A stretch of DNA of 64,000 nt from Pararhodobacter zhoushanensis. GTDB taxonomy: Bacteria; Pseudomonadota; Alphaproteobacteria; Rhodobacterales; Rhodobacteraceae. Under the pieces are notes generated by a model. It saw only the letters and a list, made by a program, of their open reading frames with translations. It did not search any database and was not told the origin of the DNA. A program made the position numbers and the translations under genes. Within the stretch, counting starts at the first letter, position 1; each line of letters starts with the position of its first letter. The stretch lies in the NCBI RefSeq assembly GCF_003990445.1, contig NZ_REEZ01000002.1, positions 189,121-253,120 of the forward strand, in the 5' to 3' direction. Shown piece after piece: positions 25,289 through 64,000 of this stretch.

Positions 25289-26371
25289 ATGACCATTTCG
25301 CTGACTGACCCGGCCCCCCGCGCCCTGCGGCTGGAGCTTGCCGTCGAGGCTGGGCTTGCCCTGCCTTCGAGCGGCACCATTGCCGTCTTCCACCCCCGTG
25401 CCGGTGAATGGCTGGACCCGCTGCCGCGTGAGCGCGTGCAGATTGTCACCCCGCATGCGCCGGACCATGCCGCGTTTGTCGCGCAGGGTTACAGCTGTGC
25501 GCAAGCCGCGACCGGCCCGTATAGCGCCGCGCTCGTCTGCCTGCCCCGCTCGCGGAGCGAAGCGCGCGATCTGCTGGCGCAGGCTGCGGCACTGACGGAT
25601 GGTCCGGTGATCGTGGATGGCCAGAAGACCGACGGCGCGGATGCGCTGTTGCGCGAACTGCGCGCTCGGGTAGAACTGAGCGAGGTCATTGCCAAAGGTC
25701 ATGGCAAGATCGCCTGGTTCCCGTCGCCCGGTGATACGCTGGGCGACTGGCGCGCGGTGGCCGGTGAAGTTTCCGACGACACCCGCAGCTATCAGACCTT
25801 GCCGGGCCTGTTTTCGGCCGATGGCATCGACGCGGCCTCGGCCTTGCTGGCGCAGATGCTGCCGGCGGGCCTGAAAGGCCAAGTGGCGGATATGGGCGCG
25901 GGCTGGGGCTATTTGTCGGCACAGCTGCTGGCCAAAGCCCCCGGCATCGCCGCTCTGCACCTGATCGAATCCGACGCCCGTGCACTGGGTTGCGCGCGGC
26001 TGAACGTCACCGACCCGCGCGCTCAGTTCCACTGGGCCGACGCCACCAACCCGCTGCCGCGCCTGCCGCTGGATGCGGTGATCATGAACCCGCCGTTCCA
26101 TCAGGGCCGCGAGGCGCGCCCACAGCTGGGCGTTGCGTTCATCCAGAGCGCGGCCAAAATGCTCAAGCCGGGCGGCCAGCTGTTCATCGTCGCCAACCGG
26201 CACCTGCCCTATGAGACGACGCTGGCGGCTTGTTTCCGCAAGCTGACGGAAGAGCCCGGCAACGCCGGCTTTAAGCTGTTTGTCGCCGAAGGCCCGGTCC
26301 GCGAGCTCAAAGCCGCCAAGTCACGCACCGCAGCGCCCCGCGCCGGCCACAGCAAAGGACGCCGTGCATGA
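25289..26371 (+). CDS. RsmC-like class I methyltransferase
   Basis: A 360-residue protein with a degenerate N-terminal domain and a C-terminal SAM domain, the RsmC/RlmG layout for 16S/23S rRNA guanine-N2 methylation. Visible motifs are VADMGAGWGYLSAQLL (motif I), HLIESDARALGCARLN and the catalytic NPPF in VIMNPPFHQGRE. It starts 19 nt after clpS and overlaps the SDR gene by four bases (ATGA). The rRNA target is inferred from the family. Confidence 0.9.
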   Translation: MTISLTDPAPRALRLELAVEAGLALPSSGTIAVFHPRAGEWLDPLPRERVQIVTPHAPDHAAFVAQGYSCAQAATGPYSAALVCLPRSRSEARDLLAQAAALTDGPVIVDGQKTDGADALLRELRARVELSEVIAKGHGKIAWFPSPGDTLGDWRAVAGEVSDDTRSYQTLPGLFSADGIDAASALLAQMLPAGLKGQVADMGAGWGYLSAQLLAKAPGIAALHLIESDARALGCARLNVTDPRAQFHWADATNPLPRLPLDAVIMNPPFHQGREARPQLGVAFIQSAAKMLKPGGQLFIVANRHLPYETTLAACFRKLTEEPGNAGFKLFVAEGPVRELKAAKSRTAAPRAGHSKGRRA

Positions 26372-27174
26372 GCTTTTCGATCGAGGGCAAGACCGCCATC
26401 ATCACTGGTGCGGCCACCGGCATCGGCCATGCGATTGCCCGGCATTTTGTCGATCAGGGGGCCAATGTCGTCTTCTCGGACCAGAACGAAAAGCGTCTGA
26501 AATCGGGTGCTGACGATTTGGCAGAGCTGCCCAACTGCCGCCTGTTTGCCGGTGACCTGCGCGAAAAGCTGAACGTTGCCAATCTGTTGTCCACGGCTCT
26601 GGACGCGTTCGACCGGGTCGATATCCTGATCAACGCAACCCGTAGCTTTATGGTCACCGACCCGCTGGACCCTGCTGACAACAGCGTCGAAACCCTGCTT
26701 GACCAGAACCTGAATGTCGCCCTGCGCACCAGCCAGGCGGTTGCGCGGCGAATGATCCTGCAAGCCGAGCAACAAGAGAACCGACCGCAAGAGGCCGGAA
26801 CGATCATCAACCTGTCCTCGATCGCGGCTCATCGCACGCAACCTGAGCTGTTGGGATTTTCCATCTCGAACGCGGCGCTTGAGCAGATGACGCGCTCGAT
26901 GGCCGTGGCGCTGGCACCGCAGGCGATCCGGGTCAACGCGATCGCCGTTGGCTCGTTGATGAGCGGCACATTGCGCGACACGATCGCCGAGCACCCCGAA
27001 TACCGCGACAGCATCATCGCGGGCACGCCCCTGCACCGGATTGGCACGGCATCAGAAGTCGCTGAACTGGCGCAGTTCCTTGCCTCGGCCGCGTCTGGCT
27101 TCATGACCGGGCAAGTCGTCGGGCTGGACGGCGGCCGGTCCGTTCTGGATACGGTGCAGCGCCCCGCCCATTGA
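26368..27174 (+). CDS. SDR-family protein lacking the catalytic Tyr/Lys
   Basis: A 268-residue Rossmann protein. The NAD(P) loop TGAATGIG (13-20) is intact and the Ser is present (Ser151 in NLSSIAAH). The position of the catalytic Tyr, 13 residues after that Ser, is Phe164 (GFSISNAAL), and the Lys four further on is Asn168. The usual NNAG is INAT. The fold seems intact, so this is likely a dinucleotide-binding pseudoenzyme or one with altered chemistry. It is translationally coupled to the RsmC-like methyltransferase gene. Confidence 0.88.
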   Translation: MSFSIEGKTAIITGAATGIGHAIARHFVDQGANVVFSDQNEKRLKSGADDLAELPNCRLFAGDLREKLNVANLLSTALDAFDRVDILINATRSFMVTDPLDPADNSVETLLDQNLNVALRTSQAVARRMILQAEQQENRPQEAGTIINLSSIAAHRTQPELLGFSISNAALEQMTRSMAVALAPQAIRVNAIAVGSLMSGTLRDTIAEHPEYRDSIIAGTPLHRIGTASEVAELAQFLASAASGFMTGQVVGLDGGRSVLDTVQRPAH

Positions 27175-28135: not shown

Positions 28136-28395
28136 CTGGCGCTCCATACATATTCTTTTCACTGCATGTAATCGCGCGAGAGCGTCATGCAAGGGCTTGC
28201 ATTCTCCTATCGGCTCGGACCGGGGCGTGGCAAGACGGCACCCGCCGACCCGAGCCATTGCCTTTCCAACGACCCACAGCGCAAATGCGGTCTCGTGTCA
28301 CTCTGCGGCACAGAAATTGCTTAAGTACGAAAGATTATTGCGCATCCGGGCGATCATGCCTACATAAGCGCAAACCGACATGGAGACCTGCCGCA

Positions 28396-28896
28396 ATGCC
28401 CGGCGCGAAACTCGATCCCATCGACCGTATGATCCTTGCCGAATTGCAAGCCGATGGACGCATGACCAACGTCGAATTGGCCAAGCGAGTCGGCATCTCG
28501 GCCCCGCCCTGCCTGCGCCGCGTCCGCACGCTGGAAGAAGCCGGATACATCCGGGGCTACCACGCGCGGGTCGACGTTCGCGAACTGGGGTTCGAGGTAC
28601 AGGTCTTTGCCATGGTGCGCCTGCACCGCCAGAACGAGGCCGATCTGCGCGCCTTCGAGGACCGCTGCCGCGCGTGGTCTTTGGTGCGTGAATGCCACAT
28701 GCTCAACGGCGAGATCGACTTTATCCTGAAATGCGTCGCACCCGACCTGTCGACGTTCCAGAATTTCCTGACCGAGGATCTGCTGGCAGCCGATAACGTC
28801 GCCAGCGTGAAAACCTCCTTGGTCATCCGCGTGGCCAAGGATGATCCGGGCGTGCCGTTCGACGTGCTCGAAGAGCGCTATCGCCGCGAGGCTTAA
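28396..28896 (+). CDS. Lrp/AsnC family transcriptional regulator
   Basis: A 166-residue protein with N-terminal HTH (LDPIDRMILAELQADGRMTNVELAKRVGISAPPCLRRVRTLEEAGYI) and C-terminal RAM ligand-binding domain. GGAG precedes the start at 28396. Its position divergent from trxB suggests it regulates thioredoxin reductase or itself; the intergenic TTGCGCAT at 28338-28345 is a possible half-site. The 3' end overlaps tusA by four bases on the opposite strand. Confidence 0.93.
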   Translation: MPGAKLDPIDRMILAELQADGRMTNVELAKRVGISAPPCLRRVRTLEEAGYIRGYHARVDVRELGFEVQVFAMVRLHRQNEADLRAFEDRCRAWSLVRECHMLNGEIDFILKCVAPDLSTFQNFLTEDLLAADNVASVKTSLVIRVAKDDPGVPFDVLEERYRREA

Positions 28897-30990: not shown

Positions 30991-31449
30991 ATGTCCATCG
31001 ACGACACTGACCGCAGGTTGCTGCGCCAGTTGCAGGCCGACCCAGCCCAGCCAATCGCCGAACTCGCCCGGCGAGCGGCGATGACCGAGGCAACCGCCTC
31101 GCGCCGTCTGGACCGGCTGCGCACCCGCGGCGTGCTCAAGGGGGTCGAGGCGGTGATCGACTGGCGCAAACTGGGGTGGGAGGTCGAGGTCTCGCTGCGC
31201 GTCACGCTGGACAAAACCAACCCGCGCGCCTTTGACGAATTCATCGCTGCCGCCCGATTGGTGCCCGAAGTGATTGAAATCCAGACCTTCCTTGGCCGCG
31301 TCGATGTCCGCCTCAACGTCATCGCCCGCGACATGACCCACTACACCGAGGTGTATCGCACCCGCATCCTCACCCTGCCCCATATCGCCGACCTCGAAGC
31401 CCTGATGCATGTCGCCGAAATCAAGCGTGGCGAGGCGCTGCCGCTGTGA
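30991..31449 (+). CDS. Lrp/AsnC family transcriptional regulator (next to ilvC)
   Basis: A 152-residue regulator. HTH (DDTDRRLLRQLQADPAQPIAELARRAAMTEATASRRLDRL) and RAM domain are complete. The start has GAGGAA upstream. Divergent to ilvC, so branched-chain amino acid control is likely. A repeat copy begins only six bases after its stop. Confidence 0.93.
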   Translation: MSIDDTDRRLLRQLQADPAQPIAELARRAAMTEATASRRLDRLRTRGVLKGVEAVIDWRKLGWEVEVSLRVTLDKTNPRAFDEFIAAARLVPEVIEIQTFLGRVDVRLNVIARDMTHYTEVYRTRILTLPHIADLEALMHVAEIKRGEALPL

Positions 31450-31560: not shown

Positions 31561-31576
31561 CTGCATGGTCCCGCCG

Positions 31577-32032
31577 ATGATCGACCTCGATGACACCGAC
31601 CGCGCCTTGCTGCGCGCCCTTGCCGCCGACGCCACGCTCAGCGCCGGGGCGCTGGGGCGGCAGCTGGGCCTCAGCCAGCCCGCCACATGGCGCCGCGTCA
31701 AACGCCTGACCGACTCCGGCGCCATCGCCGGGCGGCGGCTGGTGCTGGATCAGGCCGCGCTCGGCTTTGGGGTGACGGTGTTTCTGGGCGTTACCCTCGC
31801 CGCCAAGGGCCGCGTGTCGCTCGAAGACTTCGAGCGCGCAGTCAGCGCGATCCCGGAGGTGCAGACTGTGCAGCACGTTCTCGGCCTGTACGATTACCGC
31901 CTGCGCGTGGTCGCGCGGGATCTGGCCGATTTCGAGCGGGTCTTGCGGCGGCGGATCATGACCTTGCCGGGGATCGGCGCGGTGGACGCCAATGTGCTGT
32001 TGAGCGAAGAACGCCGCCCCGGGCCGCTGTAG
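31577..32032 (+). CDS. Lrp/AsnC family transcriptional regulator
   Basis: A 151-residue regulator starting MIDLDDTDRALLRAL, with HTH (LGRQLGLSQPATWRRVKRL) and RAM domain. ATG at 31565 is an alternative. It follows a related regulator on the same strand but is separated by repeats, and shares only modest similarity with it. The effector is unknown. Confidence 0.92.
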   Translation: MIDLDDTDRALLRALAADATLSAGALGRQLGLSQPATWRRVKRLTDSGAIAGRRLVLDQAALGFGVTVFLGVTLAAKGRVSLEDFERAVSAIPEVQTVQHVLGLYDYRLRVVARDLADFERVLRRRIMTLPGIGAVDANVLLSEERRPGPL

Positions 32033-32129: not shown

Positions 32130-32192
32130 CGGGCGCGGATTTGATTGACATTGATAATTACCTTTGGCAATCATCTGGTCGGAGGATTGTTC

Positions 32193-32633
32193 ATGACCTA
32201 TCGCTTGCACACCCGACTGGGTTTTCGCGTCTCGCGTCTGGCACGGCTGATGCAGGCGCGTCACGAGGCGGCTTTGGCCGAGGATGGCCTCACCCGCTTG
32301 GGCGCTGCGGTTCTGGGGGGTGTCGGCGACGAGGGGGTGAGCGCGCCCTCGGAACTGGCCGCCTATGTCGGTATCACCCGCCCCGCGATGTCGCGCCTGC
32401 TGCGGGGGCTTGAGACGCGCGGATTTATCTCTCGTGCACCCGGCGACGGTGACGGGCGGCAGACCTGCGTGCTGCTGACGCCGAAAGGCGAGGCGGCACT
32501 GACCCGCGCCCGCGCCGCCGGTGACGCACTGCAAGCGCATTTCGCCGCCAAATTGAGCCCGGACGCCCTGAGTGCCTTGACCGCAGCGCTTGCCCTGCTC
32601 GCTGCCGATGAACCCGATCCCACCGATTTTTAG
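32193..32633 (+). CDS. MarR-family regulator upstream of the dehalogenase
   Basis: A 146-residue MarR-type winged helix protein. The start at 32193 has a perfect GGAGG at 32181-32185. HTH/wing region: SELAAYVGITRPAMSRLLRGLETRGFISRAPGDGDGRQTCVLLT. The stop lies 12 nt before the reductive dehalogenase start, so the two form an operon and this protein probably senses its substrate. A TTGACA at 32145-32150 is a possible -35; an AT-rich stretch (32145-32172) is a plausible operator region. Confidence 0.93.
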   Translation: MTYRLHTRLGFRVSRLARLMQARHEAALAEDGLTRLGAAVLGGVGDEGVSAPSELAAYVGITRPAMSRLLRGLETRGFISRAPGDGDGRQTCVLLTPKGEAALTRARAAGDALQAHFAAKLSPDALSALTAALALLAADEPDPTDF

Positions 32634-32645
32634 AGAGGCTCGCCG

Positions 32646-35600
32646 ATGCCCGTCTTCGCCCATGCCGACCGGCCCGTCCATCTGGGCCCCTTCCCGCTGG
32701 AACGCCTGCGCCGGGGCTTGGCACCTGATCTGAGCACCCTGCCCTGGTCGCCTCCGCTGTCTTTCGAACATCCCGATCCGCAGTCGCTCGCCCACGCCAT
32801 GGCGCGTTATCAGGCGATGTTCGACACGGTGCGGCAGGGCCCGATCGTTCATGGAGAAGCGGAAATCCCTGACGATCCGCAGGAGCGCTCGAACCACCTC
32901 AAGGCCGCTGGTTACTATTTCGACGCTGCGCAAATGGGCGTCTGTGCGTTGCTGCCCGAGCACCACCTGCCTGAGCCGCATCGCAACCCGATGATCGATG
33001 CCCTGCGCGTCGAACTGGAACAGGGCCAGCCCAAGACCCATGCCGCCGGGATCGACGCGATCTATGCCGATGTCCTCGACGCCGCGGGCAGCCCGCATGG
33101 TCCGGTCACCGCGCATCGTTTCGCCCTTGTCATCGCCGTCGGCTACACCCGCGACCCCGCGCAGGGCGAGCCGGGCACCGACTGGCTACACGGCACGCAG
33201 GCCCAGCGTGCGGCGCTGCTGGCCAACAACACTGCCGTCGTGCTGTCGTCCTATCTGCGCATGCTGGGGCATGACGCCCGGGCGCATTCGGCCAGCACGT
33301 CCGAGGTGGATCTGACGCGGCTGGCGGTCTCGGCCGGGATGGCGTCGATTCAGGGCGGCGCGGCGGTGAACCCCTATCTGGGCACCCGCTATGGCCTCGC
33401 CGCCGTGACCACAACGCTGGAGCTGGCCCCCGACGCGCCGCTCGACGGCGACGGGCGCTCGGCCCGCAGCCATGGGCCGGGCTGGTGGACCGGGGCCGCC
33501 GCACCCAGACGCGCCGCTACCGCCGAACCCTTCGCCCACCGCGAGTTCCGCAAGGGCCCTTTCCCCTTCGAGCGGCTCAAAAGGCGCGAAACCCCCAGCA
33601 CGTTGATCGACCACGACCGTGTGCCGCGCTTCCCCAAGCGCGCCGATTTCTTCGCTCGCGCGCTCTATGGCGATATGGGGAAATCGGTGCAGGAGGCCAC
33701 CAAGGGCGGCCGCTATGTCGCCAAATCCCCCATCGGCGCCTGCGCCCGCCGCGCCCTCGGCGCGTTGCTTTTGTTACAGTTTGGCGAGGCGCGGGGGCCC
33801 ATTCAGGCGACCGACCCCGAGCGTAATGCAGAAAATCTGAAAGCTGCCAGCTACTACCTGAGCACCGATGCGGTCGGTTTGTGCGGCGTGCCGCACTGGG
33901 CCTATTACTCGCACAATTCCGCCGGTGAGGCGATCACGCCCTATCACGCCAATGCCGTCAACATGCTGCTGGATCAGGGGCATGAGACGATGGAGGGCGC
34001 GTCAGGCGATGACTGGATCAGCGTCGCGCAATCCATGCGCGCTTATCTGCGCTTTTCCCTGCTGGGCGGCGTCGTGGCCGAGCAGATCCGCCGTCTGGGC
34101 TATTCCGCGCGGGTGCATACGGTGATCGACGGCGACGTTTTACAGCCGCCGCTGCTGCTGCTCAGCGGGTTGGGAGAGGTCAGCCGGATCGGCGAGGTGA
34201 TCCTGAACCCCTACCTCGGCCCGCGGCTGAAATCGGGTACGGTGACCACCGATATGCCGATGGTCCATGATCAACCCATCGACTTTGGTCTGCAGACCTT
34301 CTGCGACAATTGCAACAAATGCGCGCGTGAATGCCCGTCCGGGGCGATCACCGCTGGTCCAAAACTGATGTACAACGGATATGAGATCTGGAAATCCGAC
34401 GCCGAGAAATGCGCCCGCTACCGGATCACCAACAGCGCGGGCGGCATGTGCGGGCGTTGCATGAAGACCTGCCCGTGGAACCTGCAGGGCCTGTTTGCCG
34501 AGGCCCCATTCCGCTGGCTGGCGATGAAAGCCCCGGGCTCGGCCAAGGCGCTGGCGGCGCTAGATGACAAGCTGGGGCGCGGGTCGATCAACCCGGTCAA
34601 GGCGTGGTGGTGGGACATCGAGCTGGACAAGGCGGGCAAGCGCTATGTCGCGGCAGGGGCGACCAACCGGCGCGAGCTGAGCCGCGATCTGGTGCTGAAT
34701 TATGAGGATCAGACGCTCGCCGTCTATCCCGCCGACAGCATGCCACCGCCCTTCCCCATCACCCATCCGCTGAACCGCGAGGAAGGCATCGCGCGCTACC
34801 GCACCCTGCTCACGCCCGAAGAATACCGCAACCGGCTGGCGCGCGGCGAGACCGAGGGTCTGGTGCCCGGCGTGAAAGTGCCGGGAGAGCCGCCCGTGTT
34901 CCCCGTGACGATCACCAAACGCGAGGATCTGAGCGACGACACCGTGCGCTTCGAGCTGACGCGCGCGGACGGCCAGCCGCTGCCGCCCTTCGAGGCGGGC
35001 GCGCATATCGACGTGGTTATCGCACCCGAATTCCAGCGCGAATACTCGCTGGCGGGCGACCCGGCAGATGCGTCGAAGTACGTGCTCGGCGTCCAGCGAG
35101 AGGCGCAAGGCCGGGGCGGCTCACTGCTCATGCACCGGGTGTTCCGCGAAGGGCGGAAAGTGTTTGTCACGCCGCCGACCAACCTCTTCCCGCTGGATGA
35201 GGCAGCACCCTTTACCCTGCTCATCGGCGGCGGCATCGGCATCACGCCGATGCTGACCATGGCGCACCGGCTGCACGCTCTGGGCGGCGATTTCCGCCTG
35301 CACTACCTCGCGCGCGGCACCGCTCCGTTCGGGGCCGAGATCGCCGCAGCGCCCTGGGCGGACAAGGCGGAAAGCCATGTCAAAACCGACGGACCCCGCG
35401 TCGATATGGCCACGCTGATCCCGCCCTATACACCCGGCGCGCGGCTCTACACCTGCGGCGGCGGCACGTTCATGGATGCGGTGTTCGACACCGCCCGCGC
35501 GCAGGGCTGGCCGGATGAGGCACTGGCGCGCGAATATTTCGCCGTGCCCGAAGCGCCCGAATATGTGAACCACCCGTTCACCCTGCGCCTGACGCAATCG

Positions 35601-35840
35601 GGCCGCGACATCGCGGTGCCTGCCGATCAATCCGCCACTGATGCCTTGGCTCAGATGGGGATCAACGTGCCCACCAAGTGCTCGGACGGAATCTGCGGCG
35701 TGTGCTCGGCCAACCACCATACGCCTGAGGGGATCGAGCACCGCGACTATGTGCTGTCGGCCAAGGAACGCGAAAAGCGGGTGATCCTGTGCTGCTCGCG
35801 CGCCAACGCGCCGGACGGGGTGATCGCCGTCGACCTGTGA
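32646..35840 (+). CDS. Self-sufficient reductive dehalogenase fused to FMN/NAD(P)H/[2Fe-2S] reductase
   Basis: A 1064-residue fusion. Residues about 300-545 form the cobalamin-binding reductive dehalogenase core; residues 14-285 look like a degenerate copy of it (GPFPLERL at 14, GPFPFERL at 304; NLKAA/HLKAA and NPYLGxR recur). Two [4Fe-4S] clusters follow: C553, C556, C559, C563 and C589, C602, C605, C609. Residues about 750-960 are a phthalate-dioxygenase-reductase-like module (REYSLAG FMN site near 797; GGGIGITPML at 861). C1012, C1017, C1020 and C1050 form a plant-type [2Fe-2S] site (CX4CX2CX29C). The layout resembles BhbA of Comamonas and, for the first part, NpRdhA of Nitratireductor. 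With no Tat signal or membrane anchor protein it should be cytosolic and draw electrons from NAD(P)H. Halide substrate unknown. Confidence 0.95.
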   Translation: MPVFAHADRPVHLGPFPLERLRRGLAPDLSTLPWSPPLSFEHPDPQSLAHAMARYQAMFDTVRQGPIVHGEAEIPDDPQERSNHLKAAGYYFDAAQMGVCALLPEHHLPEPHRNPMIDALRVELEQGQPKTHAAGIDAIYADVLDAAGSPHGPVTAHRFALVIAVGYTRDPAQGEPGTDWLHGTQAQRAALLANNTAVVLSSYLRMLGHDARAHSASTSEVDLTRLAVSAGMASIQGGAAVNPYLGTRYGLAAVTTTLELAPDAPLDGDGRSARSHGPGWWTGAAAPRRAATAEPFAHREFRKGPFPFERLKRRETPSTLIDHDRVPRFPKRADFFARALYGDMGKSVQEATKGGRYVAKSPIGACARRALGALLLLQFGEARGPIQATDPERNAENLKAASYYLSTDAVGLCGVPHWAYYSHNSAGEAITPYHANAVNMLLDQGHETMEGASGDDWISVAQSMRAYLRFSLLGGVVAEQIRRLGYSARVHTVIDGDVLQPPLLLLSGLGEVSRIGEVILNPYLGPRLKSGTVTTDMPMVHDQPIDFGLQTFCDNCNKCARECPSGAITAGPKLMYNGYEIWKSDAEKCARYRITNSAGGMCGRCMKTCPWNLQGLFAEAPFRWLAMKAPGSAKALAALDDKLGRGSINPVKAWWWDIELDKAGKRYVAAGATNRRELSRDLVLNYEDQTLAVYPADSMPPPFPITHPLNREEGIARYRTLLTPEEYRNRLARGETEGLVPGVKVPGEPPVFPVTITKREDLSDDTVRFELTRADGQPLPPFEAGAHIDVVIAPEFQREYSLAGDPADASKYVLGVQREAQGRGGSLLMHRVFREGRKVFVTPPTNLFPLDEAAPFTLLIGGGIGITPMLTMAHRLHALGGDFRLHYLARGTAPFGAEIAAAPWADKAESHVKTDGPRVDMATLIPPYTPGARLYTCGGGTFMDAVFDTARAQGWPDEALAREYFAVPEAPEYVNHPFTLRLTQSGRDIAVPADQSATDALAQMGINVPTKCSDGICGVCSANHHTPEGIEHRDYVLSAKEREKRVILCCSRANAPDGVIAVDL

Positions 35841-35922: not shown

Positions 35923-36972
35923 ATGACAGATCTTGCACACGAGATTTCCCTTGGCCTCGATACGTTTGGCGATGTCAGCCACGACGATCAGGGCCAGCCC
36001 AAACCGATGGACCAGGTTCTGCGCGATGTCGTGGATCAGGCGGTCTATGCCGACCAGCTGGGCATCGACTTTATCGGTCTGGGTGAACATCACCGGTCCG
36101 ATTTCGCCATTTCCTCGCCCGAGATCGTGCTGGCCACGATTGCCGGGAAGACCAATCGCATCAAGCTGGGCACGGCGGTGACGATCCTGTCGACCGACGA
36201 TCCGGTGCGGGTGTTCCAGCGGTTTTCGACGCTGAACGCGGTGTCGAACGGACGCGCCGAGCCGATTTTGGGGCGGGGCAGCTTTACCGAAAGTTATGGT
36301 TTGTTCGGCTATGACATGCAGGACTATGATCAACTGTTCGAGGAGAAGCTCGATATCTTTGCCCGCCTGCTGCGCGACGGCAAAGCCAAATGGAGCGGGA
36401 AAACCCGCAGCCCGCTGAACAACGAGACCATCTATCCGCCGCTGGGCCAGCCGATGACCACCTGGGTGGGCGTCGGCGGCAGCCCGGAATCGGTGGTGCG
36501 TGTGGCGCGGCACGATTTGCAGCTGATGCTGGCGATCATCGGCGGCGACCCGCTGCGGTTCAAACCTTATGTCGAGCTGTACCACCGCGCGGTGACTCAA
36601 CTGGAGACGAAAGCGCGCTCGATCGGCATCCACTCGCCCGGCTTTGTCGCCGCGACGGATGAGGAGGCGCGCGAGGCGCTCTGGCCGCACCATCAGGAAA
36701 TGTTCGGCCGCCTCGGGCGCGAGCGTGGCTGGCCGCCGATGACCAAGGCGCGCTACATCGACGAGATCGAGCAAGGCGCGCTCGTTGTCGGTTCGCCCGA
36801 AACCGTCGCACGGAAAATTGCGCGCTCGGTCAAGGGGTTGGGCATCCAACGCTTCGACATGAAATACACCAGCGGCCCGGTGCCCCACGCGCTGAACATG
36901 GAGTGCCTGCGGCTCTACGGTGAGCATGTGATCCCGATGGTCCGCGACCTGTTGGCCACCGACAAGACCTGA
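35923..36972 (+). CDS. Luciferase-like (LLM class) flavin-dependent oxidoreductase
   Basis: A 349-residue TIM-barrel flavoprotein of the bacterial-luciferase superfamily. Typical segments are YADQLGIDFIGLGEHHRSDFAISSPEIVLATIAGKT, TILSTDDPVRVFQRFSTLN and ILGRGSFTE, then VGVGGSPESVVRVARH. The start has an AGGAG site. It lies 82 nt after the dehalogenase on the same strand and may act on its substrate or product, but nothing proves this. Flavin is probably FMN; substrate unknown. Confidence 0.93.
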   Translation: MTDLAHEISLGLDTFGDVSHDDQGQPKPMDQVLRDVVDQAVYADQLGIDFIGLGEHHRSDFAISSPEIVLATIAGKTNRIKLGTAVTILSTDDPVRVFQRFSTLNAVSNGRAEPILGRGSFTESYGLFGYDMQDYDQLFEEKLDIFARLLRDGKAKWSGKTRSPLNNETIYPPLGQPMTTWVGVGGSPESVVRVARHDLQLMLAIIGGDPLRFKPYVELYHRAVTQLETKARSIGIHSPGFVAATDEEAREALWPHHQEMFGRLGRERGWPPMTKARYIDEIEQGALVVGSPETVARKIARSVKGLGIQRFDMKYTSGPVPHALNMECLRLYGEHVIPMVRDLLATDKT

Positions 36973-37577: not shown

Positions 37578-37817
37578 GGGAACCTCGCGTATTATCCCGT
37601 CTATCAGACTGAAATGGTAGAGATCCGGCGCGAAAAGAAAAGCCCCAGCTGAGGCAGCTGACCGCCCCGCCTGCTGCCTTTGGCAATTGTGGCGAAACTG
37701 GGATTATTCGTGGCCATAAACAATCTGTTTCAAAATATGCATATTTGATGAATCTTAAAATCGCGCAATCATCTCCACCTTAGACGCTTGTTAGTCCTCT
37801 ATCTGTAGGTGGTAAAA
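37578..37817. promoter_or_regulatory. AT-rich promoter region with perfect palindrome
   Basis: The 240 bp between divergent genes are much richer in A/T than the surroundings, especially 37680-37800. AAATATGCATATTT at 37733-37746 is a perfect 14-bp palindrome about 70 nt upstream of the acidic-protein start. It is a candidate operator; no factor can be named. Confidence 0.5.
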
Positions 37818-38588
37818 ATGGGTTTTCGTTTTGGACTGCTCGGCTCGCTCTCGCTCGGGCGCACCCCCGTTGTGACCAGCCCGGTCACCAATGACCACGG
37901 CCTGTTGGGTAATCTTCTCGACACAGTCGGCAATGGCGCTGACGGTCTGCTCGATTCTCTCGGCGATGGCGTGGCCGAAATCACTGATTCACTCGGGTTG
38001 ACGGTCGGTGACGTCACCGATGAGGCAGGCGATACGGTTGAGGATATCTTCGGCGCCCTTGGCCTGGGCGATCTGGGCAGCACGCTGGATAACGGGGTGT
38101 CCGATATCGGCGGCTCGCTGGACACGACGCTGGTTTACGGCGGCAATGAAGTCGACAAGATTTTGCATCAGCTCGGCGACGACATCAACGGCCTGCTCGA
38201 TGCGCCGCTCGATCCTGAAAATCTGGGCGAAAGCCTGGACAATCTGATCGACACGGTGGGCAAGACGGTTGCCGAGACGCTCGACACGACCGGGCTGGGC
38301 ACCGGTCTGCTGGGCGGGGATGTCGGCGACCTGCTCGACAATCTGCTCGACGATCTGGGGCTCGATGGCAGCGCGCTGGACGACGCGATCACCGAGCTGA
38401 CGTCGGACCTGGACGAGACGCTGCTTTATGGCGGCAAGGATCTGGAGAGCCTGTTCGACAAGGTCGGCGACACCGTGGAAGAGGTTGTCTCAGATCTGGG
38501 TCATGATCTGTTCCTGCCGCCCGCTACCGACGAGGGTAACTGCGACGACAGTGAGATTGAGATCACCGTCGACGTCGCCCTTTGCTGA
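37818..38588 (+). CDS. Acidic repeat protein, function unknown
   Basis: A 256-residue protein starting MGFRFGLLGSLSLG after the weak site AGGTGG. It is rich in Asp, Gly, Leu and Thr with very few Lys/Arg, so strongly acidic. Two related segments of about 135 residues carry the duplicate blocks GSLDTTLVYGGNEVDKIL and SDLDETLLYGGKDLESLF, each preceded by repeats of the type LGxxVxDLLDxL. It ends in Cys (DVALC). No known domain, signal peptide or metal site is obvious. A surface, adhesin-like or structural role is a guess. Confidence 0.75.
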   Translation: MGFRFGLLGSLSLGRTPVVTSPVTNDHGLLGNLLDTVGNGADGLLDSLGDGVAEITDSLGLTVGDVTDEAGDTVEDIFGALGLGDLGSTLDNGVSDIGGSLDTTLVYGGNEVDKILHQLGDDINGLLDAPLDPENLGESLDNLIDTVGKTVAETLDTTGLGTGLLGGDVGDLLDNLLDDLGLDGSALDDAITELTSDLDETLLYGGKDLESLFDKVGDTVEEVVSDLGHDLFLPPATDEGNCDDSEIEITVDVALC

Positions 38589-42123: not shown

Positions 42124-42411
42124 TCAGAGGAAAACCGAGATGTTGTTCGTGATCACAATCCGGATCGCATAGATCGCCAAAAGCACGATCAAAGGGGCCA
42201 GATCCAGACCGCCCATATTGGGCAGGAAAGACCGGATACGGCTGTAGACCGGTTCGAGCACGCGGTTCAGACCGTCCCAGATTTGCGCCACCAGCGGCTG
42301 CCGGAGGTTCAGAACCTGAAAGTTGATCAGCCAGCTCATGATCACATGGGCGATCACGATCCACCAGATCACGTTGAGCACAAGAAACAGGATCTGGATC
42401 ACTGACAGCAT
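42124..42411 (-). CDS. YggT family membrane protein
   Basis: A 95-residue protein with two hydrophobic helices (about residues 4-28 and 72-92) and the family's central INFQVLNLRQPLVAQIWDGLNRVLEPVYSRIRSFLP. YggT proteins are inner-membrane proteins linked to osmotic or division functions; role here is inferred. It ends four bases upstream of recQ on the same strand. Confidence 0.93.
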   Translation of the reverse strand: MLSVIQILFLVLNVIWWIVIAHVIMSWLINFQVLNLRQPLVAQIWDGLNRVLEPVYSRIRSFLPNMGGLDLAPLIVLLAIYAIRIVITNNISVFL

Positions 42412-60666: not shown

Positions 60667-61515
60667 TCAGGCCGCACACTCGATCAGCAGCGTACCGGCA
60701 GCGGTGTTCGAGATCGGGATGTGGTAGTTGCGCGTGATCTCGGTCACGTCGTCGCCCAAGGCCCCACGCATCATCATCCACATCAGGAATTCAGTGCCCT
60801 GCGCACCGGCGTTCTTGACCAGTTCCTGACGGGTGATCTTGGTCAGCTCCTCAGGATTGTGGACGATATTGTCCAGGCAGTAGCGGTCGAACTCCTTGTT
60901 GATGAAGCCCGCGCGCTGGCCGTCAAGCTGGTGGCTCAAGCCCCCGGTGCCCAGCACGACGATCTTGGCATCCTCGGGGAAGCTGAGCAGCGCCTTGCGC
61001 AAAGCCTTGCCGAAGTTCAGCGCCCGGTTCAGCGTCGGGATCGGGTGCTGCACGGTGTTGGCGCTGATCGGCACCGCGCGCGGCATGTCGGGGTTGTTGG
61101 GCGCACCCGGCCAGAACAGCTGCATCGGCACCACAAAGCCGTGGTCCACCGCCAGTTCCTGACACGAGGTGATGTCGAACTCATCGGCCACCATCGACTC
61201 GATGATGTGCCAGCTCAGCTCCGGCGCGCCGGGGAACGGCGGCAGGGCGGGCAGGCCCCAGCCCTCATCCTCGTTGCGGTACTCATGCGCCGCACCGATG
61301 GCGAAGGTCGGCATGCGGTCCAGAAAGAAGCCCAGCCCGTGATCGTTGTAGATGTTGATCACATAGTCGGGCTTGTTGTCCTGAACCCATTTATGGACCT
61401 TGGGATAGCCGTCGAAGAACGGTTTCCAATAGGGATCGTCCTGCAGGCCCTTGTTGATCGCGTTGCCCACGGCGGGGATGTGCGAGGTGGTGATACCGCC
61501 CAGAATGCGTGCCAT
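60667..61515 (-). CDS. ligB: Protocatechuate 4,5-dioxygenase beta subunit
   Basis: Catalytic subunit of the type II (LigB-superfamily) extradiol dioxygenase that opens protocatechuate to 4-carboxy-2-hydroxymuconate semialdehyde. The 282-residue protein opens with ILGGITTSHIPAVG (Fe-ligand His), and has NDHGLGFF (second ligand), GTGGLSHQLDG and the C-terminal Glu block. It lies 12 nt after ligA, forming an alpha-beta pair. The enzyme needs Fe(II) and O2 in the cytosol. Confidence 0.96.
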   Translation of the reverse strand: MARILGGITTSHIPAVGNAINKGLQDDPYWKPFFDGYPKVHKWVQDNKPDYVINIYNDHGLGFFLDRMPTFAIGAAHEYRNEDEGWGLPALPPFPGAPELSWHIIESMVADEFDITSCQELAVDHGFVVPMQLFWPGAPNNPDMPRAVPISANTVQHPIPTLNRALNFGKALRKALLSFPEDAKIVVLGTGGLSHQLDGQRAGFINKEFDRYCLDNIVHNPEELTKITRQELVKNAGAQGTEFLMWMMMRGALGDDVTEITRNYHIPISNTAAGTLLIECAA

Positions 61516-61527
61516 GATCGCGTCTCC

Positions 61528-61884
61528 TTATGCCTGACTGGCCAGATATTGCTGGAATTCTTCGGTGGTCTTGCCGGTCTGCAAACCGCCGACATCCTGC
61601 ACCGAAAGCTTGAAGATCCCGGCGAATTTGGCGAGGTAATAGATGTTCCCGCCCGCGTCGATCAGGCCGAGCACATCGCGCTTGCGGATCGCCTCTTTCT
61701 GTTCGTCGTTCAGGCCGAACCTGGCCATATAGCCCTCTTCATCCGCCAGAAACGCCTCGCGGTTGATCTGCTGGTTGAACGAATAGCACATCTTGTTCAG
61801 CGCATAGCCCTTCATGGCCATCTTGCCGTCGAACAAAGTCGTGCCAGGAATATCAATGTGATAGTCGTAGCCGGGCTGGTCCAT
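61528..61884 (-). CDS. ligA: Protocatechuate 4,5-dioxygenase alpha subunit
   Basis: The small alpha subunit, 118 residues, that caps the LigB active site. It has YDYHIDIPGTTLFDGKMAMKGYALNKMCYSFNQQINREAFLADEEGYMARFGL. The start at 61884 (MDQPGYDYH) is chosen by homology. An inverted repeat of FNR/CRP type lies about 60 nt upstream. Together with ligB it is probably regulated by the LysR gene at the window end. Confidence 0.95.
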   Translation of the reverse strand: MDQPGYDYHIDIPGTTLFDGKMAMKGYALNKMCYSFNQQINREAFLADEEGYMARFGLNDEQKEAIRKRDVLGLIDAGGNIYYLAKFAGIFKLSVQDVGGLQTGKTTEEFQQYLASQA

Positions 61885-61937
61885 CGCGTGTCCTCCATCG
61901 CTTGCAGGGCCAGTGTCCCATGCAGGCGCGCCCGGAA

Positions 61938-61955
61938 ATTTGACCTGAATCAAAT
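61938..61955. promoter_or_regulatory. FNR/FixK-like inverted repeat before ligA
   Basis: ATTTGACCTGAATCAAAT is a perfect ATTTGA-N6-TCAAAT repeat and contains TTGAC-N4-ATCAA, one base off the FNR consensus. Its centre lies about 62 nt upstream of the ligA start. Binding factor is inferred. Confidence 0.55.
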
Positions 61956-62028
61956 GGGCGGTCCGGTCGGCGCGAAACCAATAGCGCAGACAGAGAAGTT
62001 ATAGACGCAGCGGCGCGCGGAATGCGAA

Positions 62029-62055
62029 ACGGGCGCGCCTTTCGGCACGCCCGTC
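62029..62055 (-). terminator. Possible terminator after ligI
   Basis: ACGGGCG-C-GCC pairs with GGC-A-CGCCCGT (62029-62055) with one internal mismatch, 20 nt past the ligI stop. T-run is short, so strength is doubtful. Confidence 0.5.
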
Positions 62056-62077
62056 GGTTTGGTTTAGCAAGCGTCGG

Positions 62078-62971
62078 TCAGTCGGCCCAGTAGAGGCGCA
62101 TCGGGTTGTCGATCAGCAGCTTCTGGCGCTGCGCCTCGGTGCGGGCGATCCGGGGGATGTAATCAACCAAGGCGCCATCATCGGGCATGTGCGATTTCAT
62201 GTTCGGATGCGGCCAGTCGGTGCCCCACAGAACGCGGTCCTCGAACCGGTCCACGATGGCCTGATAATAGGGGACAACATCGTCATAGGGCGCGCCTGTT
62301 TTGGTCAGCCGCTCGGGGCAGGTCACCTTGGTCCAGACGTTTTCATTCTGCGCCATCAGGTTAATGAAACGCTCAAAATCCGGGTGATCGACGCCCTTGG
62401 TCACATCCGGGCGGCCCATGTGGTCAACGACGATGATGCCGGGCAGCGAGGTCAGGAAAGGCTCCAGTCCCTCAAGATCCTGCGCTTCAAAATAAACGAC
62501 CGTGGACCAGCCGAATTCCTGGATCTTGTCGGCGATGCCCAGAAACACCTCGGGCGGGGTCGCGTCGACCAGCCGTTTCACAAAGTTGAAGCGCACGCCG
62601 CGCACGCCGCTTTCGTGCATCGCTTTCAGCTCGTCACGGGTGATGTCCTTGCCCACCGAAGCCACGCCGCGCGCCTTGTCACCGGCAGCGACGCAGGCGT
62701 CGACCATGGCGCGGTTGTCCTTGCCGTGGCAGGTCGCCTGCACGATCACATTGCGCTCGAACCCCAGAAAATCGCGCAGGGCGAACAGCTTGTCCTTACC
62801 CGCGTCTCCGGGGGTGTATTTGCGCTCGGGCGCGTAAGGGAACTCGGCCGAGGGGCCGAAGACGTGGCAATGCGCATCGACCGCGCCCTTGGGCAGCACG
62901 AAATCGGGCGTCTTGGGATTGGGGTGATAGACCAGCCAGTCGGCATCCATCGGCTGCGGTTGCGTCGTCAT
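62078..62971 (-). CDS. ligI: 2-pyrone-4,6-dicarboxylate hydrolase (LigI-like)
   Basis: A 297-residue amidohydrolase-superfamily enzyme that opens 2-pyrone-4,6-dicarboxylate (next step of the 4,5-cleavage pathway). Metal ligands include VDAHCHVFGP (HxH), VDHMGRP and the Asp in WGTDWPHPN. The N-terminus is from ATG 62971. Genes for LigC, LigJ and LigK are not in the window and may lie beyond it. Confidence 0.93.
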   Translation of the reverse strand: MTTQPQPMDADWLVYHPNPKTPDFVLPKGAVDAHCHVFGPSAEFPYAPERKYTPGDAGKDKLFALRDFLGFERNVIVQATCHGKDNRAMVDACVAAGDKARGVASVGKDITRDELKAMHESGVRGVRFNFVKRLVDATPPEVFLGIADKIQEFGWSTVVYFEAQDLEGLEPFLTSLPGIIVVDHMGRPDVTKGVDHPDFERFINLMAQNENVWTKVTCPERLTKTGAPYDDVVPYYQAIVDRFEDRVLWGTDWPHPNMKSHMPDDGALVDYIPRIARTEAQRQKLLIDNPMRLYWAD

Positions 62972-63097
62972 GTTGTTCCTCCTGCGACGGGCCTCGTGCA
63001 GCGGGCCCAGCCGTTTGCGCGCACCATGCCGCAATGAACACAGTTTGCCTATTTCAAACCAAGGCCGTAAAATAAGTTTTCGCTATTCAGGTGTCAA

Positions 63098-64000
63098 ATG
63101 GCTGACAGCTTGCCGAACCTGCGCCACATGCGCGTGTTTCTGGAGACGGCGCGCACCGGGTCGGTCTCGGCGGCGGCGGAACGGTGTTTGCTGTCGCAAC
63201 CCGCCGCCACGCAGGCCATCGCCCGGCTGGAGCGGGACGTGGGCGCGCCCCTGCTGGTACGGCGCACGCGGCGCTTTGGCACCACGGCCTGCGGTGCGCT
63301 GTTCGTCCGGCGGGTCGAGGCGGCACTGGATCACCTCAACACCGGCGCGCGGATGGCCCTGCGCGGCGCGCGCGATACGGGCGGCAAGCGCGCGTCGTTT
63401 GATCATCTGATCACCGCCGCCCAATTGCGCGCCCTCATTGCCGTGGCCGGAACCGGCAGCTTCACCGTCGCCGCGCAGTCCCTGGGCCTGTCGCAACCCA
63501 CCGTCCACCGCGCCGCGCGCAGCCTTGAGGACGTGGCGGGCGTGCCGTTCTTCCTGACCACGGCCTCGGGCGTCGAGCTGACCACCGCTGCGCAGGCCTT
63601 TGTGCTGGGTGCCAAGCTGGCGCAGGCCGAAATCCGGCAGGGGTTCGAGGAAATCGGCCGCGAGATGGGCGATGATCGCGGCACGTTCCTGCTCGGCTCG
63701 CTGCCCATGGCGCGCACGCTGATCGTGCCGCGCGCCACGCATGCGCTGATCAGCGCGACGCAGGGTGTGCAGGTGCAGGTGGTCGACGGGCGCTACGACG
63801 CGCTGCTGCGCTCGCTGCGCGAAGGGGATCTGGACTGCCTGATCGGCGCGCTGCGCAACCCGCTGCCCGCCGAGGATGTGACGCAAGAGCCGCTGTTTGA
63901 CGACGCGCTGGCCATCGTTGCCCATCCCAGCCATCCGCTGGCAGGCCGGGCCGAGATCAGCCTTGAAGACACCCTCGCGTACCCCTGGGTTGCGCCGCCC
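63098..64000 (+). CDS. LysR-family regulator with two tandem HTH domains (3' truncated)
   Basis: An open frame from ATG 63098 to the window end (301 codons, no stop). Residues 8-66 are one LysR HTH (MRVFLETARTGSVSAAAERCLLSQPAATQAIARLERDVG), and residues about 105-165 are a second (LRALIAVAGTGSFTVAAQSLGLSQPTVHRAARSLEDVAG). The effector-binding domain begins after about residue 190 (GTFLLGSLPMARTLIVPRA). Divergent to ligI across 126 bp, so it probably activates the lig genes on sensing a pathway intermediate. Confidence 0.9.
   Translation, partial: MADSLPNLRHMRVFLETARTGSVSAAAERCLLSQPAATQAIARLERDVGAPLLVRRTRRFGTTACGALFVRRVEAALDHLNTGARMALRGARDTGGKRASFDHLITAAQLRALIAVAGTGSFTVAAQSLGLSQPTVHRAARSLEDVAGVPFFLTTASGVELTTAAQAFVLGAKLAQAEIRQGFEEIGREMGDDRGTFLLGSLPMARTLIVPRATHALISATQGVQVQVVDGRYDALLRSLREGDLDCLIGALRNPLPAEDVTQEPLFDDALAIVAHPSHPLAGRAEISLEDTLAYPWVAPP

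Follow-up and report, generated by a model that had tools for sequence, protein, structure and literature searches.

A probable self-sufficient reductive dehalogenase, fused to its own reductase and preceded by a MarR-type regulator, in Pararhodobacter zhoushanensis

The 64,000-nt stretch of the Pararhodobacter zhoushanensis genome analysed here (the window) carries, directly downstream of a marR-family regulator gene on the same strand, an intact open reading frame (ORF) that runs from ATG to stop with zero internal stops and encodes a 1064-residue fused RdhA protein (Table 1). The first-pass annotation had described this protein as a self-sufficient reductive dehalogenase that combines a dehalogenase and an electron-supply module in one polypeptide, and had placed its gene behind a MarR regulator. 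That observation is confirmed, whereas the interpretation attached to it is partly supported: the sequence anatomy and the function class stand, while rarity and novelty do not.

Table 1. Features at and around the fused rdhA gene, in window coordinates.
Feature	Position	Strand	Basis
Fused rdhA (vestigial RdhA copy, RdhA core, PDOR module)	32646..35840	+	profile, structure-sequence and alignment comparisons
Vestigial N-terminal copy of the RdhA fold, residues 8-275, catalytic Tyr/Lys replaced	32667..33470	+	hhalign
Catalytic corrinoid/Fe-S RdhA core, ~residues 300-660 (F336, S463, M464, Y467, K529, R593)	33543..34625	+	
Two [4Fe-4S] cysteine motifs, C553 to C609	34302..34472	+	Pfam and alignment
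Phthalate dioxygenase reductase (PDOR) module, ~residues 742-1064	34869..35837	+	2PIA match
Plant-type [2Fe-2S] cysteines C1012/1017/1020/1049	35679..35792	+	PF00111 and alignment
marR-family regulator, 146 aa from an ATG preceded by GGAGG	32193..32633	+	PF12802, 39.2 bits (scan begun at the TTG)
MarR operator-like palindrome, site 1, TTGATT-N9-AATTAC, holds -35 hexamer TTGACA	32141..32161	.	one mismatch to pattern
MarR operator-like palindrome, site 2, ATAATT-N9-AATCAT, overlaps site 1, reaches -10 hexamer	32154..32174	.	exact match
Predicted sigma-70-like promoter for marR-rdhA, TTGACA-18-AATCAT	32145..32174	+	10/12 consensus matches
Luciferase-like (LLM-class) flavin monooxygenase, Atu2307/SP_0267 family, 82 nt downstream of rdhA	35923..36972	+	TIGR03858, 467.4 bits (cut-off 462.25)
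Protocatechuate 4,5-cleavage-type genes: LigB 60667-61515, LigA 61528-61953, amidohydrolase 62078-63034	60667..63034	-	profile matches

The dehalogenase and reductase assignments are carried by several comparisons. The core exceeds the cut-off of the reductive dehalogenase model TIGR02486 (194.7 bits, cut-off 160.35), the crystal sequences of NpRdhA (4RAS, 6ZXU) align to residues 2-106 and 156-732 (E ~1e-160), and residues 747-1059 match phthalate dioxygenase reductase 2PIA over nearly its whole length (E 6.3e-56). At E 0.001, only Fer4-type and Fer2 models of Pfam match the protein, Fer2 above its cut-off; the Pfam flavin and NAD models miss this threshold, which counts against the observation. 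For comparison, 86 proteins and their loci were assembled, comprising the window, the best 80 of 562 candidate stretches from named genomes and five plasmid loci; some of the 562 may match the reductase alone, and the 80 kept are those nearest to the window protein. Throughout these 86 fused proteins, all eight cysteines of the two [4Fe-4S] motifs (C553, C556, C559, C563 and C589, C602, C605, C609) and the four of the [2Fe-2S] motif are invariant, and the same holds for the six residues F336, S463, M464, Y467, K529 and R593, equivalent to F291, S422, M423, Y426, K488 and R552 of the NpRdhA active site. The last five line or act in that site (PMC7565698), and PMC10463259 lists all six among the conserved residues of JtRdhA.

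Ahead of the core lies a degenerate duplicate of it. Residues 8-275 align to residues 300-560 with an hhalign probability of 99.8 (E 9.7e-29), where two control pairs reached only 0.1 and 0.3, and in this alignment Ala stands opposite the catalytic Tyr and Gly opposite the catalytic Lys. In comparison with a 96%-identical relative, the ratio of nonsynonymous to synonymous substitution rates (dN/dS) amounts to 0.06, and with two relatives of 86% identity it is 0.14, indicating that rdhA is under purifying selection. A chance ORF is ruled out by the residues invariant in 86 of 86 proteins in conjunction with the dN/dS of 0.06.

By motif and hydropathy rules, the protein contains no twin-arginine motif, hydrophobic N-terminal segment or transmembrane-like segment, and no RdhB-like gene was found within ~10 kb of rdhA (22646-46000, scanned for ORFs of 60-160 aa with two transmembrane-like segments). 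The sole ORF of that description, at 42124-42411, resembles YggT and is presumably not RdhB. The lack of a twin-arginine translocation (Tat) signal and of an RdhB anchor, as claimed at first pass, is therefore upheld within these rules and this distance, the protein is likely cytosolic, and a respiratory RdhA was rejected. Alternatively, the core could belong to a corrinoid reductase of another family, similar to epoxyqueuosine reductase and fused to a reductase without being a dehalogenase, in agreement with a weak similarity of ~27 bits to TIGR00276. This score (27.7 bits) compares with a cut-off of 200, a separate QueG is encoded elsewhere in the genome (441.3 bits), and the six dehalogenase active-site residues are retained, which renders such an assignment extremely improbable. 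Placement among the queuosine reductases, named beforehand as an outcome that would contradict the dehalogenase reading, was thus not obtained.

Upstream, the marR stop codon lies 12 nt before rdhA, so that both genes are probably carried on one transcript. The program-called marR start, TTG 32145, lies inside the predicted promoter, and the ATG at 32193 is preferred. The two overlapping palindromes span the whole of that promoter, which is to be taken as a consensus match only, since 2 such sites occur per 5.2 kb versus 0.8 in shuffled sequence. Three Lrp/AsnC-type regulators are encoded on the same strand within 4 kb upstream of marR (30991-31449, 31574-32032 and 28258-28896), two called by Pfam and the third by similarity, with only weak matches in other loci.

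The palindrome pattern comprises 21 bases, [AT][AT][AG][AG]TT-N9-AA[CT][CT][AT][AT], and was drawn after inspection of ten upstream stretches. A same-strand marR directly upstream of rdhA is present at 21 of the 86 loci, spread over both clades described below, and at these loci 16 of the 17 exact matches in 369,602 nt fall within the 11,550 nt (3.1%) around the marR start. An exact palindrome occurs at the marR start in 15 of the 21, and one with at most one mismatch in 20; for the 13 loci that were not used to draw the pattern, the corresponding numbers are 10 and 13. The 65 other loci hold five exact matches in 1,010,507 nt, and the 34,544 nt that precede rdhA contain none of them. Apart from site 2, the window contains no exact match, and genome-wide there is no excess, with seven exact matches (site 2 included) against nine for the reversed control pattern; a wider MarR regulon was rejected on this basis, and control is suggested to be purely local. 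The palindromes over the promoter likewise suggest local MarR control of a marR-rdhA unit. The genes at each locus were chosen by script rather than curated; at five of the 86 loci the upstream sequence is too short for the marR rule, the divergent call for L019 rests on a weak match, and the divergent marR annotated in L089 was missed. A literature search on MarR control of catabolic rdhA genes gave nothing relevant among the matches listed.

The fused gene is common in the host's family, and the claim that its relatives are few did not hold. Near-full-length copies (at least 990 of the 1064 residues in one match) are present in 6 of 19 genomes of the genus and in 109 of 295 genomes of the family, the latter being a draw from a larger group and the window's genome being counted in both samples. 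All of the best 80 of 562 candidate loci from named genomes carry a near-full-length homologue, the nearest named relative among them being that of Pararhodobacter aggregans (86%). Plasmids contribute 8 of 72,556 records with a homologue over at least 80% of the length (49.6-57.3% identity). Two genomes of the family show the fused gene as a pair of separate matches (G286:C1:2006484-2009686 and G117:C4:333242-336420), which suggests decay or assembly error.

In a quickly built tree, with support from the Shimodaira-Hasegawa-like approximate likelihood-ratio test (SH-aLRT) only and with NpRdhA on a very long branch, the window protein falls into a clade of 48 rows (SH-aLRT 100) that spans Pararhodobacter, Pseudorhodobacter and Chelativorans as well as, at a greater distance, Limnohabitans and other Burkholderiales, Comamonadaceae included. 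The second main clade (35 rows, support 90) contains e.g. Ruegeria, Loktanella and Pseudovibrio. The fused enzyme thus occurs across classes, and horizontal transfer of the gene seems likely. Two loci, L052 (a metagenome-assembled genome labelled Candidatus Fonsibacter) and L014 (labelled Bordetella parapertussis), have their rdhA among the Burkholderiales rows, and at least the Fonsibacter case probably reflects an error of binning or naming. For Limnohabitans dehalogenases, the literature matches listed comprised only work on chloroethenes in aquifers.

Based on these comparisons, we propose, with a probability of about 90%, that the window protein acts in the cytosol as a self-sufficient catabolic reductive dehalogenase and belongs to the BhbA/JtRdhA subfamily. 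Once loaded with its cofactors, the enzyme would accept hydride from NAD(P)H on flavin mononucleotide (FMN) in the C-terminal module, from which single electrons would pass via the [2Fe-2S] cluster and the two [4Fe-4S] clusters to base-off cobalamin in the core. This cofactor would then engage the halogen of an ortho-halogenated phenol, and a proton supplied by Y467, assisted by K529 and R593, would allow release of the dehalogenated phenol and halide. Phenols resembling bromo- or iodo-4-hydroxybenzoate appear the likeliest substrates. In conjunction, marR and rdhA would be transcribed together from one promoter, with MarR acting as repressor until a phenolic ligand binds and induction follows, and the product, e.g. 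4-hydroxybenzoate, may enter degradation via PobA and protocatechuate 4,5-cleavage.

Several findings weigh against this proposal or parts of it. The Pfam dehalogenase model PF13486 misses E 0.001 for the window protein. By the script rule, 59 of the 86 loci have no adjoining marR, so MarR control is not universal, and the palindrome is less telling when one mismatch is allowed: 26 of 51 matches are then upstream-placed in the marR loci, and the 65 other loci have 11 of 142 upstream of rdhA, including one in L089 beside the divergent marR. No ring-cleavage or aromatic-uptake gene is present among the rdhA neighbours examined, the lig genes lying ~25 kb and pobA ~167 kb away. Finally, the NpRdhA pocket residues K307, F310, P311, A419 and N452 are replaced by T, Y, V, V and V, respectively.

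The pocket also bears on the identity of the substrate. In NpRdhA its hydrophobic part is formed by F290, F310, P311, A419 and M423, with A419 lining the site of a second halogen (PMC7565698). Position 290, F335 in the window protein, is Phe in 45 and Trp in 3 of the 48 proteins of the window clade, in contrast to Met (30/35) or Leu (5/35) in the other main clade; position 419 is Val in nearly all of the window clade (46/48) but mixed in the other (C in 15, G in 9, V in 7, A in 2, and S and T in one each). The halogen range of the two clades may therefore differ, given Phe versus Met or Leu at position 290. This split and the prevalent Val would fit a natural substrate other than bromo- or iodo-hydroxybenzoates for the same class of enzyme, i.e. 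a chlorophenol or a halogenated compound of natural origin, as would the statement in PMC10463259 that it is unclear whether fusions are confined to brominated compounds. However, debrominating BhbA also has Phe at position 290, a single pocket residue rarely sets the halogen range, and other core columns separate the clades equally sharply, so that the split is a lead and not proof of altered specificity. We consider such a substrate unlikely. A more elaborate version, in which the window-clade pocket (position 290 and partly Val 419) would confer a different halogen range including chlorophenols while the marR switch senses the halophenol itself, also seems improbable. The available sections of the cited literature on fused dehalogenases name no tested member of the window clade.

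Across the 86 loci, no neighbouring family pointed to one shared pathway. The commonest is marR (21 loci), followed by a short-chain dehydrogenase family (20 loci, 11 within 300 nt; the window member, 26368-27174, lies >5 kb from rdhA). Next come a TctC-type receptor, present at 17 loci and within 300 nt at 7 of them, and a LysR regulator, for which these numbers are 15 and 3. Of the 86 loci, 78 extend for at least 1200 nt beyond rdhA, and the flavin monooxygenase gene follows rdhA at only 3 of the 86; a tight functional tie between these two genes was therefore rejected, leaving a functional link doubtful. Further downstream, 37809-38588 (+) encodes a 259-aa protein with repeated Asp/Leu/Gly-rich segments and no Pfam match at E 0.001.

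Genes for a possible downstream pathway are found at a distance. PobA (688.2 bits, cut-off 538.7) and LigA (159.1 bits, cut-off 108.6) are encoded on the same contig as rdhA, and CobN is present in the genome (1018.3 bits, cut-off 822.05), so that cobalamin is probably made by the organism. A protocatechuate 3,4-cleavage route was rejected, PcaH reaching only 63.4 bits (cut-off 296.4). The lig genes adjoin a LysR-family regulator (63098-64000, +) that runs off the window; its single ORF holds two HTH_1 stretches and has a PcaQ-type best NCBIfam match over residues 110-301, i.e. it is either a tandem helix-turn-helix LysR or a fused frame. On a Nitratireductor plasmid the fused rdhA lies near pobA and an extradiol dioxygenase gene, although pobA or lig-type genes are neither beside nor close to it in the other three annotated plasmid regions examined. 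This placement, that on plasmid pBHB described below, and PobA and LigA in the genome make plausible a route in which debromination yields 4-hydroxybenzoate for PobA and then 4,5-cleavage, though the genes are scattered here. Alternatively, the enzyme may serve halophenol detoxification instead of catabolism, with the MarR switch as part of a stress response. MarR proteins often sense phenolic toxicants, and both the absence of catabolic genes from the examined neighbourhood of rdhA and the lack of any sign of further regulon sites would fit this role, but PobA and LigA in the genome and two fused relatives located in or near 4-hydroxybenzoate or protocatechuate genes argue for catabolism. Detoxification is a tentative alternative that we regard as somewhat unlikely.

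In conclusion, the catabolic reductive dehalogenase reading is very probably right. Judged by its sequence, the window enzyme is well conserved and ordinary for its subfamily, which has been described before; the MarR switch and the pocket split offer two modest leads. What is added here is the marR-rdhA unit behind a recurring palindrome, the clade-specific pocket residue and the presence of PobA and LigAB-type genes on the same contig. The frequency of the fused gene in the family is useful in itself, the predicted promoter switch is simply testable, and the pocket residue allows the question of bromine-only versus chlorine to be addressed by comparing two natural enzymes. Self-sufficient dehalogenases run in air on ordinary NAD(P)H, which makes them relevant to clean-up and to the cycling of bromine and iodine.

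The fused, self-sufficient design is already known from BhbA and JtRdhA. Reductive dehalogenases fall into four subfamilies by domain organisation (PMC10463259), and JtRdhA of Jhaorihella thermophila (WP_104007082), likewise from a member of the Rhodobacterales, resembles the window protein by its published description, with no Tat signal, a duplicated cobalamin-binding domain, two [4Fe-4S] clusters, a PDOR fusion and the key residues Y426, K488 and R552 (PMC10463259). It differs in being a characterised enzyme, purified and kinetically analysed in 2023; JtRdhA catalyses NADPH-driven debromination and deiodination of ortho-halophenols, also in air, and the chloro-compounds tested were not reduced (PMC10463259). 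The novelty suggested at first pass was thus overstated, as the same architecture with this activity had been published. The comparison with BhbA and NpRdhA proposed there revealed homology to both. BhbA of Comamonas sp. 7D-2 (WP_015585978) is the same fusion over its whole length (50.6% identity over 1057 columns), with Ser in place of Val at pocket position 419; its gene lies on plasmid pBHB beside ligA, class III extradiol dioxygenase and transporter or porin genes, with no marR annotated next to it. NpRdhA of Nitratireductor pacificus shares the core, the vestigial domain and all six active-site residues (42.6% over 674 aligned columns) but is no fusion: it represents the naturally truncated type without reductase (PMC10463259), its 704-residue chain matching only up to residue 732. 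An insertion of ~42 residues after ~residue 106 of the window protein has no counterpart in NpRdhA, in a comparison that does not cover seven nearby NpRdhA residues; it may correspond to the insert that PMC10463259 describes for the fusions. 2PIA is alike to the reductase module, but is itself a stand-alone protein serving a dioxygenase. Short catabolic enzymes without a Tat signal are known from related bacteria as well, i.e. Ros_A3X954, reported from Roseobacter sp., and A0A2T7UTL8 of Pararhodobacter aggregans (PMC13101508), the organism whose dehalogenase converts 2,4,6-triiodophenol into phenol (cited in PMC13101508). Ros_A3X954 differs from the window protein in that its Fe-S motifs lie at residues 283-345, hence it is short, and the P. 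aggregans protein is taken to be of the same type because it is 72.2% identical to it; by size, both presumably lack the reductase fusion and the duplication. The window's genome encodes a second, distinct RdhA of 395 aa (L004:1150-2337, +, contig C34; TIGR02486 161.6 bits, cut-off 160.35) with Fe-S motifs near-identical to those of Ros_A3X954, and the organism therefore seems to possess two types of catabolic RdhA, the fused and the short.

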